Positions 23,166 through 26,539 of a stretch of 64,000 nt of DNA are shown piece after piece (positions within the stretch are counted from its first letter, which is position 1; each line of letters starts with the position of its first letter). Source of the stretch: Bacteroidota bacterium. GTDB taxonomy: Bacteria; Bacteroidota; Bacteroidia; B-17B0; Aurantibacillaceae. The notes under the pieces were generated by a model. The model did no database searches. It was not told where the DNA came from and saw nothing but the letters and a program-made list of their open reading frames with translations. A program made the position numbers and the translations under genes. The stretch covers positions 1-64,000 of the forward strand of contig JAQZBQ010000015.1 of NCBI GenBank assembly GCA_029237825.1. Reading direction: 5' to 3'.

Positions 23166-23603
23166 TTAATTCAGATTGAGGGCAGGAATTTTTCCTTCCT
23201 TAATCAAATTCAATGTTTTTTGTTTATGGTCTTCAAAACTTCCAAATGCCAAAGCATCTAACATTTCAGACCGTGACATATTAGGGTTGCCAAATTGCTT
23301 GCGAATGTCTTCTGAACAACGGTCAACATACTTTTCAAATTTATTGGGAGCCCATAAATAATCCTTTTTCACGGCTTCCTTTTCTATTTTGAATTCCTCA
23401 GGTAATCCACCTTCAATTTTGGATTTAATTTCCAAACCTTCATAAGATTTCGGTAATTGACGATTGTCAAACAAAAACGGCTTAGAAATCATGATCACAT
23501 GCTTCTTACGTTTTGGGTCAATCATGGATAATCCTTCAATTCTAAGCCCCTTTTTTTTAAGGGAACCGAATTTGGTTTCAAAATTTTTTAATATCTCAAA
23601 CAT
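23166..23603 (-). CDS. Conserved-looking cytoplasmic protein of unknown function
   Basis: This 145-residue protein is charged, with no signal peptide or membrane helix. The first half (FGSLKKKGLRIEGLSMIDPKRKKHVIMISKP) looks like a beta-hairpin domain. The second half is helical and has a possible cysteine at residue 93. The gene has its own good -7 box and a strong terminator, so it is a single-gene transcript and probably a real, expressed protein. I do not recognise a family. Confidence 0.7.
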   Translation of the reverse strand: MFEILKNFETKFGSLKKKGLRIEGLSMIDPKRKKHVIMISKPFLFDNRQLPKSYEGLEIKSKIEGGLPEEFKIEKEAVKKDYLWAPNKFEKYVDRCSEDIRKQFGNPNMSRSEMLDALAFGSFEDHKQKTLNLIKEGKIPALNLN

Positions 23604-23815: not shown

Positions 23816-26539
23816 TTAGGCAAACCTAACCTTTTGTTGTGCTCCGAAATCCAGGATACGGTCAATAAAATCGAGAGGCTTGTACCCATTGATTGCAGCC
23901 TGATGATAAATACAAGTAGCCGGTGTCATTCCGGGAAGTGAGTTTACCTCAATAAAAATTACCTCAACACGGCTCACATCATATATACGCACAAAAGCGT
24001 CGATACGGCAATACCCAACAATATTTAAAACTTTAGCCGCCGCACCCAGCGTCTCTTTCACTTTATCCGAAATCAGTTGCCTTTCCTTTTCATCCCGGGA
24101 ATACCGTGCCGGCGTAATATTTTGTCCCTGACCTGCCAGAAATTTCTCTTCTAAACTTAAAATATCACCTTCGGCAAGCGCTTCTGATGCTTCAAACACT
24201 TCGTATTCAATATCGCCCTTCGCATTAAATCGGGTAAGCATACCCCCGGTAATTTCTAAAAAATGTGCAGCTCCATTTTTGCTAATGAGTTCTTCAACCA
24301 GTATAACCTGCTTTTTCGGAAATTCTTCTTTTGCTTTTATATGCAGCGTTTCGGCAGCCTTCATATCAAATTCCTCGGTTTCTCTGAACATAAGAGTTGC
24401 AAAGGCTTCAAACTCTTCAAAATTCTTAATTTTCTTAACAGCACTACTGCATCCATCATCAACCGGTTTAGCGATTAAAGGGTACACAAATTCATTTTTC
24501 AGCCAGGATTTTATTTCTTCCTTCTTGTGTAGCCATTCGTCAGAACTGATGAGGCAATGTTTGGCAGCAAGAAATCCATTTTTCATCAATATTTCATTTG
24601 TTCTGAATTTATCAATGGTGATGGATGAACTTTCCTTTCCTGAACCGTTATACGTTAAGCCCACTTTCTCAAGTTCTTCCTGAACTGCACCGTCTTCTCC
24701 TGGCCGCCCATGCAACGCAATAAATACCTGTTTAACTTCTTTAGAAAGATCGGTATAACTTACCTGCTTAGGTTCAATTAAATTTTGCGGAGAACCGTAT
24801 TTATCAGTGATCGTTTTGCATTCCTGAATTATATCAGCAATCACTTTGTGCGTTTTCCAATTATCAACTTTATCTCTGATATCGTCCGCATTATCTTTTA
24901 ATAAAGCATTTATCGGAATCTGATACATCACATGCTGTTTGTTATTCATGGTTAAAAACACTGGAACAGGAGCATATTTTGCGGATGAAGCCAGCTTCTC
25001 AAATATATTTCTTCCACTTTCAACGGAAATATGCCGTTCGGAGGAATAGCCACCTAAAATCACTGCTACCGGTATCTTGGTATTATGAGCGTTCTTTTCA
25101 TCCTGAAGCGAGGACTCCAGCCTTTGCAATATTAAATTGTAAATAGATGCACCTTTACTTCCTTTTATGCGTTTGCATAAGGAGGCACGGATAATTAAAG
25201 TCAAAAACTGAGAGGGCGTTAAGCCGATTTCAGCTGCCTGATGAAAGAAAAAGGACGAAGGCATCATACCCGAAGTGGTGTTGGGATCATTTAAAAATAC
25301 TCTTCCATCCTTGCTTAAAAATCCGTCGATTCTTGCATATACATCAAAGCTTAGTTCTCCAAAAAGCCGTTCACACTCTTTACGAATGGCATTAATTTGG
25401 TCATCACTCGCTTCAATAGGTGTAATTTTTCTCGACAGTCCAGGTAAATATTTACTTCGGTAGTCAAAGAGCTCCTTGCCCTTTCTAATTTCTGTTGGAG
25501 GCAACGCAATTGGCTTATTATTCGAATCAGTGTCTTCCAGAACAATACATGAAAATTCTTTTCCTTCAATAAAACCTTCAACAAGTACGGTGCTCTCTCC
25601 ATCAAGCGCTTCCAACACAAATCCTTCCGTTAAATGGCAATTGTTATTGAGATACGAAATGAGCTCGTACTGATTATAAAAAACCAATTCATCATTGCTT
25701 TGGATTTCGTTTACCAAACCTAAATTTATTTTTAGTGGCATTCCTATTCCTTCGCGGATGTCGGATAAAGAACGTACAAATTCAATTTTTTGGATATCCG
25801 TTAACCTGTTCCATTCACTGGAATCAAGCCATTTTGTAAAGAGCGCTTTTTCAATCGCCGTCATGAAGGCACTTTGATTATCTTCATTTAAAATGGTAAT
25901 CCCAATGGACGAACCCTGGTTTGCCGGTTTAATCACCATTGGAAAGCCAATAGTTGATTTTGCTTCTTCCCATGAATGATTATCCGTTCCATTTATCCAA
26001 GCTTCCCTATCAATAACAAAATATTCAGGGCAATTAAATCCGGCATTCACCATGAAGCGTTTTTGCACACTTTTATCTATACCGATAGCACTGGGTAAAA
26101 TACCGCTTCCTGAATAAGGAATTTGCAGGTACTCAAGCAGCCCTTGTATGCGACCATCTTCACCGTATGGTCCATGAAGAGCGAGAAATGCGAAATCAAT
26201 TAATGAAGGTAATTCGTGGGGGAGAATTTTTTTTCCGATTTTAAGAATTAACTCGTCCTGTTGTAGCGTAGTTAACTTTCCTAAGTTTTCGGCGTAATAC
26301 TGAAAATGCTCATTGTTGGCTGGAATAAAGTCAACCGGTGGATAAAAATCACGAATGGTGCCTTTGTAAACATAATTCCAATTCAATAAAATAAAATTTC
26401 CGAAAGAGTCAACAAACAACGGTATTGCCTCAAATATGGATTTATTTAAATTATCGTAAACCGTCCTTCCACCGGCAAAAGAAATTTCACGTTCTTTTGA
26501 ACGTCCTCCAAATAGAATTCCAATCTTTATCTTCGACAT
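23816..26539 (-). CDS. ddl: Tandem double D-alanine-D-alanine ligase
   Basis: The 907-residue protein holds two complete ATP-grasp ligases joined by a short linker (about 470-490). Ddl normally has about 310-370 residues. The first half has GGRSKEREIS, HGPYGEDG, GSGILPSAIGIDK and RIDGF. The second half has GGYSSERHIS, HGRPGEDG, GSGKESSSITIDK and RIDAF. The metal-binding end is normal in the second half (IEVNSLPGMTP) but altered in the first (NDPNTTSGMMP: Asp where Glu is usual, SG for PG). Either half could make D-Ala-D-Ala for peptidoglycan, with the first perhaps weakened. The halves are diverged, so the duplication is old. The gene stands alone, away from any mur cluster. Confidence 0.88.
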   Translation of the reverse strand: MSKIKIGILFGGRSKEREISFAGGRTVYDNLNKSIFEAIPLFVDSFGNFILLNWNYVYKGTIRDFYPPVDFIPANNEHFQYYAENLGKLTTLQQDELILKIGKKILPHELPSLIDFAFLALHGPYGEDGRIQGLLEYLQIPYSGSGILPSAIGIDKSVQKRFMVNAGFNCPEYFVIDREAWINGTDNHSWEEAKSTIGFPMVIKPANQGSSIGITILNEDNQSAFMTAIEKALFTKWLDSSEWNRLTDIQKIEFVRSLSDIREGIGMPLKINLGLVNEIQSNDELVFYNQYELISYLNNNCHLTEGFVLEALDGESTVLVEGFIEGKEFSCIVLEDTDSNNKPIALPPTEIRKGKELFDYRSKYLPGLSRKITPIEASDDQINAIRKECERLFGELSFDVYARIDGFLSKDGRVFLNDPNTTSGMMPSSFFFHQAAEIGLTPSQFLTLIIRASLCKRIKGSKGASIYNLILQRLESSLQDEKNAHNTKIPVAVILGGYSSERHISVESGRNIFEKLASSAKYAPVPVFLTMNNKQHVMYQIPINALLKDNADDIRDKVDNWKTHKVIADIIQECKTITDKYGSPQNLIEPKQVSYTDLSKEVKQVFIALHGRPGEDGAVQEELEKVGLTYNGSGKESSSITIDKFRTNEILMKNGFLAAKHCLISSDEWLHKKEEIKSWLKNEFVYPLIAKPVDDGCSSAVKKIKNFEEFEAFATLMFRETEEFDMKAAETLHIKAKEEFPKKQVILVEELISKNGAAHFLEITGGMLTRFNAKGDIEYEVFEASEALAEGDILSLEEKFLAGQGQNITPARYSRDEKERQLISDKVKETLGAAAKVLNIVGYCRIDAFVRIYDVSRVEVIFIEVNSLPGMTPATCIYHQAAINGYKPLDFIDRILDFGAQQKVRFA

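Follow-up and report, generated by a model that had tools for sequence, protein, structure and literature searches.

A two-module D-alanine-D-alanine ligase of Bacteroidia with different invariant changes in its two active sites

A 907-residue protein of a Bacteroidia genome carries two D-Ala-D-Ala ligase (Ddl) modules in one chain, and the double Ddl is a real, widespread two-module form of an essential enzyme, apparently unstudied in bacteria. Our tentative reading, put forward as one joint claim, has three parts: D-Ala-D-Ala is made by the first half; the second half is still able to ligate, with a different acceptor or different kinetics; and this fusion, as the sole Ddl, has taken the place of the single enzyme across much of the class. 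Ddl is essential and is a target of D-cycloserine, and the Tyr/Phe switch in its active site underlies intrinsic vancomycin resistance in lactobacilli. As the sole Ddl of roughly 40% of the Bacteroidia genera sampled, a two-site form with invariant opposite changes would be a testable case of subfunctionalisation.

Architecture and active sites of the double Ddl

The window, that is, the whole 64,000-nucleotide stretch of contig JAQZBQ010000015.1 that was analysed, holds the gene as one open frame on the minus strand, with an ATG start and zero internal stops. The earlier note had read the product as two complete ligases in one protein, and the reading frame, the Pfam matches and the predicted folds agree with it. 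The protein contains two Dala_Dala_lig_N and several Dala_Dala_lig_C stretches, two copies of each lying above the curated cut-offs. Equivalent residues are numbered after E. coli DdlB, whose sequence was verified against 1iov and 2dln. The features are as follows.

23816..26539, minus strand: double Ddl gene, 907 aa, one open frame and the genome's sole PF01820 gene
25160..26539, minus strand: first Ddl module, residues 1-460, from alignment and predicted fold
25901..25915, minus strand: GSSIG loop of the first module, Ser210 corresponding to DdlB Ser150
25625..25888, minus strand: insertion region of about 70 residues (218-305) in the first module, lacking from DdlB in the alignment and modelled as mostly helical
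25439..25474, minus strand: omega loop of the first module, ELFDYRSKYLPG, with Tyr360, Lys363 and Tyr364 at DdlB Tyr212, Lys215 and Tyr216
25265..25291, minus strand: metal/oxyanion loop of the first module, NDPNTTSGM, residues 417-425, with Asp418 at DdlB Glu270 and Ser423 at Pro275
25076..25159, minus strand: helical linker joining the modules, residues 461-488, from the secondary structure of the model
23819..25075, minus strand: second Ddl module, residues 489-907, from alignment and predicted fold
24440..24454, minus strand: GCSSA loop of the second module, with Cys697 (invariant) at DdlB Ser150 and Ala700 at Gly153
24131..24166, minus strand: diverged omega loop of the second module, DILSLEEKFLAG, with Leu796 at Tyr212, Lys799 at Lys215 and Phe800 (invariant) at Tyr216
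23927..23953, minus strand: normal metal loop of the second module, IEVNSLPGM, residues 863-871, with Glu864 and Asn866 at Glu270 and Asn272

The HGxxGEDG, DK and RID blocks that had been listed for both halves are all found, as HGPYGEDG at 122-129 and HGRPGEDG at 610-617, as Asp-Lys pairs at residues 155-156 and 643-644, and as Arg-Ile-Asp at 403-405 and 845-847. AlphaFold2 modelled the whole protein with a pLDDT of 81.6 and a pTM of 0.83. The first half superimposes on the DdlA-type structure 3i12 (Z 37.0, rmsd 2.9 over 332 residues), and the second half, modelled alone with a pLDDT of 82.1, on the Ddl structure 3tqt (Z 29.2, rmsd 3.5 over 320). Stretches with pLDDT below 50 are mainly the two omega loops, including that of the second half, so the shape of its pocket is a low-confidence prediction.

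Each half by itself falls below every NCBIfam Ddl cut-off that was compared. The first half scores 226.1, 221.5 and 216 bits against cut-offs of 262, 243 and 245.65, and the second half 146 bits against 243. The whole protein passes only through the summed scores of its halves, and automatic annotation calls it plainly 'D-alanine--D-alanine ligase', though neither half alone reaches a curated cut-off.

To describe the active sites, we counted residues in 106 non-redundant doubles (mutual identity below 88%), which include 37 family or genus representatives and reach down to 37-38% identity, and in 11 further doubles, some of them highly divergent. E15, H63, K97, K144, E180, K215, R255, D257, N272 and G276 are invariant in both halves of the 106, where one second half is gapped at N272 and G276. 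In the 907-residue protein, the first module keeps the equivalents of E15, H63, K97, K144, S150, E187, K215, Y216, R255, D257, N272, G276 and S281, and the second module those of E15, H63, K97, K144, E187, K215, R255, D257, E270, N272 and G276. The catalytic set is complete in the second half, and complete in the first except for E270. An Ala at Glu187 of the second half, seen in the initial alignment, was dropped, as the larger alignment has Glu in all.

The differences between the halves are fixed. The first half carries E270D and P275S in 106/106 and keeps Ser150 and Tyr216 in 106/106; Y212 and S281 are also kept, with M usually at 278 and F at 282. The second half retains E270, N272, P275, G276 and T278 (a PGMT loop) and shows S150C, Y216F and S281T, Cys150 and Phe216 being present in every one of the 106. 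Its omega loop also has L at 212 (I in one double) and D211S, and position 282 is usually C (L282C). In the 11 further doubles the signature is unchanged except at 282, apart from one K144R, in the first half of locus L224. For comparison, among the phylum's single Ddls Tyr216 occurs in 46/46 and Glu270 in 44/46.

The earlier note had described an altered metal site in the first half only. The replacement of IEVNSLPGM by NDPNTTSGM there stands, in a refined form: Glu becomes Asp with Asn kept, which on sequence is a conservative change at the Mg ligand, as an acid remains. The note did not mention that the second half is altered too, at S150C, Y212L, Y216F and S281T. The assignment of Phe800 to the 216 column, made by alignment, is secure, because two observations agree: in the HMMER alignment, EEKFLAG of the second half falls on the omega loop of DdlB, the Y216F mutant 1iow scoring slightly above the wild type, and Phe also occupies this column in a Ddl of Latilactobacillus curvatus.

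Distribution, locus and origin

The earlier note had suggested a search for another ddl in the genome. A PF01820 profile search of the source genome (99.7% complete) matched nothing but the double Ddl gene and found no second ordinary ddl. Other PF07478 matches were rejected as extra Ddls, as those proteins are without PF01820. The genome encodes MurF and a MurF-Alr fusion, thus an alanine racemase; because MurF and Alr are present, D-Ala-D-Ala must be made in these cells, and the double Ddl is probably now its only source in cells that carry it. The MurF-Alr fusion and the separate MurF coexist in this genome (C14:11264-13639, C28:112719-113969). Three frames of about 870 aa match both Mur-ligase and ATP-grasp models (C22:137326-138909, C13:63564-65267, C7:23364-24899) and resemble cyanophycin synthetase paralogues.

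Using the second half as the query and E <= 1e-50 as the threshold for an orthologue, we found it in 156 of 396 Bacteroidia genomes and in 78 of 195 genera (about 40%), from 39 families as counted by hand. All 65 searched genomes of the source order, each at least 90% complete, have the double Ddl family. PF01820 matches exactly twice in 62 of these 65, once in two and three times in one; the exceptions are consistent with broken contigs and a probable contamination. Within the source family, 85 of 87 genomes match, nearly all by one open frame of about 900 aa or by pieces cut by contig ends. These 85 genomes, together with the deep clades described below, led us to reject an assembly artefact or a recent tandem duplication. 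A sample of the wider phylum outside Bacteroidia yielded no double, its matches being single Ddls of the ordinary kind with E-values of about 1e-16 at best, and a plasmid search with the second half returned only distant single Ddls, with identity below 60%. In some families (f51, f61), double and single forms occur in different genomes.

Several individual records deserve mention. A contig titled Candidatus Saccharibacteria (L050) carries a Bacteroidia-type double Ddl with 69% identity, and one is also present on several contigs under the title Chitinophaga pinensis; these titles look like those of mislabelled MAGs. One double-Ddl genome also has a single Ddl-like frame of 336 aa on a small contig (G086:C52:44-1000), probably a contamination. 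L224:5751-9344 (plus strand), from a Bacteroidia genome of family f61, encodes a 1197-aa fusion of Ddl, Ddl, a transmembrane helix and PASTA domains; other sampled f61 members have a single Ddl.

Outside the source family, the usual gene order is a Ham1-like NTPase, the double Ddl, a PASTA protein, a secreted-type protein of about 630 aa and an S4-domain protein. PASTA genes adjoin the single ddl too in relatives (L152, L219); therefore, the double form sits where ddl is normally found. In the source genome the PASTA gene is unlinked to the double Ddl (C27:6950-7351, C22:178576-178737), and its neighbours in the window encode a polyprenyl synthetase, a member of the Omp85 family and a 145-aa protein. 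The latter, at 23166-23603 on the minus strand, lies directly downstream of the double Ddl and has no Pfam match; its relatives occur near the double Ddl in 14 of the fetched loci.

In a maximum-likelihood tree, from which three single-Ddl rows badly aligned at key positions were left out, the N halves and the C halves each group in a clade of their own (both 100/100), and one branch (99/95) separates them from DdlB and all the singles. This suggests that one ancient in-frame duplication and fusion of ddl is likely, though not proven, as the branches linking the N and C halves are long (1.1 and 1.8) and attraction between them is possible. Conservation is near equal in the two halves, with a mean identity of 0.52 versus 0.55, 123 versus 124 near-invariant positions and a pairwise correlation of 0.91. 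Neither half appears to be drifting, because conservation is about equal, and for the same reason a decaying second half was rejected. Apart from the fixed substitutions, both halves retain their catalytic residues, which makes simple decay unlikely.

Roles of the two halves

Published work on the acceptor pocket bears directly on the roles. Phe or Tyr at the 216 position decides between depsipeptide and dipeptide activity (PMC5996685). Ligases whose only product is D-Ala-D-Ala conserve Ser150 and Tyr216, and DdlB with Ser150 changed to Ala and Tyr216 to Phe has weak D-Ala-D-Lac activity (PMC7691350). Because this rule is broken in the second half, that half is the candidate for an altered acceptor. 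The first half, where the omega loop is normal and the Glu15/Ser150/Tyr216 pocket for the acceptor is intact, is for these reasons the putative D-Ala-D-Ala enzyme.

We tentatively propose that the first module carries out the essential D-Ala-D-Ala synthesis, in which Asp replacing Glu270 would still supply a carboxylate for Mg. The second module may stay catalytically competent, as suggested by its invariant ATP, Mg and oxyanion residues, with an acceptor pocket presumably re-shaped by S150C, Y212L, Y216F, S281T and L282C. It would most likely join D-Ala to a substrate other than D-Ala, or work with different kinetics, and both modules would act inside one covalent pseudo-dimer. On the other hand, Asp at 270 could cripple the first half, and Cys and Phe of the second half could mark a regulatory site and not a catalytic one. 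No D-Lac or D-Ser pathway linked to the double Ddl gene was found among its neighbours. A van-type resistance cluster was also considered and rejected, as vanHX-like dehydrogenase and dipeptidase genes are absent beside the double Ddl. M15 (VanX-type) peptidases are encoded on other contigs of the source genome, and this family is matched in Bacteroides ihuae as well.

The second half might instead be a regulatory or structural partner, which would bind ATP together with D-Ala or D-Ala-D-Ala, ligate to no useful extent, and stabilise or tune the first half, like the other protomer in an ordinary Ddl dimer. We consider this rather unlikely taken by itself, and nearly as likely as the preferred reading. 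The omega loop is the most changed part of the second half (Y212L, Y216F, D211S), and this half alone lies far below every NCBIfam Ddl cut-off (146 versus 243 bits). Ddl dimers recur across the family (PMC6899670), and the pTM of the full-length model suggests that the halves are packed in a defined way. However, the equivalents of Lys215, Arg255, Asp257, Glu270, Asn272 and Gly276 are all invariant in the second half, and if this half served only as a scaffold or sensor, there would be no need for the full phosphoryl-transfer and oxyanion set to persist over so many families.

The earlier note had suggested the roles the other way round, with the second half as possibly the ordinary enzyme and the first half as a weak or regulatory ligase, or one for a different D-amino acid or hydroxy acid as in vancomycin-resistant ligases. 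It is true that the textbook E-x-N-x-x-PGMT loop is found in the second half, whereas the first half has D-P-N-T-T-S-G-M, with Asp and Ser in all 106 doubles. Yet the second half has invariably lost Ser150 and Tyr216, the mark of strict D-Ala-D-Ala ligases (PMC7691350), whereas the first keeps both. The first half is also closer to the Ddl models (226 versus 146 bits at best) and to known structures (Z 37.0 versus 29.2). An altered acceptor fits the second half better, with Phe at 216, than the first with its normal residues. The roles are therefore probably reversed as judged from these residues, and we give the original assignment a slim chance.

A division of labour on one reaction, resembling CarB, seems to us very unlikely. 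One half would form the acyl phosphate and the other would complete the bond or consume the product, with transfer between the two sites. The invariant lesions are complementary, in the metal loop on one side and in the acceptor pocket and omega loop on the other, and the halves evolve in step and remain fused in 39 families. Against this, Ddl chemistry needs one ATP and one site, each half has residues enough alone, and nothing points to a tunnel. Equally hard to credit is that both halves are equally good D-Ala-D-Ala ligases whose substitutions are neutral lineage features fixed early: both have all core catalytic residues, but non-standard residues at specificity positions that are totally invariant across the group argue for constraint, and all 46 of the phylum's singles that were compared have Tyr216.

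Comparison with known systems

In fold, domain order and catalytic residues, each half resembles the E. coli DdlB/DdlA type. Ligases of that type, in contrast, are single modules, usually homodimers, that retain all of Ser150, Tyr216 and Glu270. F-type D-Ala-D-Lac ligases (Leuconostoc LmDdl2, Lactobacillus Ddl) have Phe at 216, like the second half, and a residue other than Tyr at this position (Phe or His), which marks the Van and F types, occurs in the second half only (Phe800, invariant). In L. curvatus Ddl, Ser150 and Leu282 are retained and the omega loop is nearly normal, whereas the second half has Cys150, Leu212, Thr281 and Cys282. The second half lies below the cut-offs of the NCBIfam D_ala_D_lac (83.7 versus 550 bits) and D_ala_D_ser (68.1 versus 520 bits) models.

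The chlamydial MurC-Ddl fusion (NF011171) likewise joins a Ddl to a wall enzyme, but its partner is MurC and not another Ddl; the double Ddl scores 166.5 bits against this model, whose curated cut-off is 1015. CarB of carbamoyl phosphate synthetase has two homologous ATP-grasp halves with separate roles in one chain. It belongs to another subfamily with another chemistry and serves as an analogy only.

The earlier note had also considered that a double Ddl might be trivially common and well studied. The form is indeed common, while no study of it in bacteria was found: for tandem Ddl in bacteria no paper turned up in a search confined largely to openly accessible articles.

The closest published architecture is that of land plants, where a single gene present across the plant lineage encodes two putative DDL enzymes fused together (PMC9954125). 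Compared by its published description, the plastid DDL of Physcomitrella and Arabidopsis shares two fused DDL modules per chain with the Bacteroidia double Ddl, though it is eukaryotic and acts in plastids. For the moss Ddl, the highest identity is reported to homologues from the Fibrobacteres-Chlorobi-Bacteroidetes group (PMC9434261). We view as doubtful the combined claim that the second half actively ligates a different acceptor, or is a channelled partner of the first, and that the plant plastid double DDL descends from the same fusion. If it were true, one essential protein would give much of Bacteroidia either two D-Ala-D-X products or a single product made by divided labour. The double Ddl is a candidate bacterial source of the fused DDL of land plants, the origin of which has been described only as lying on the Bacteroidetes-Chlorobi side.
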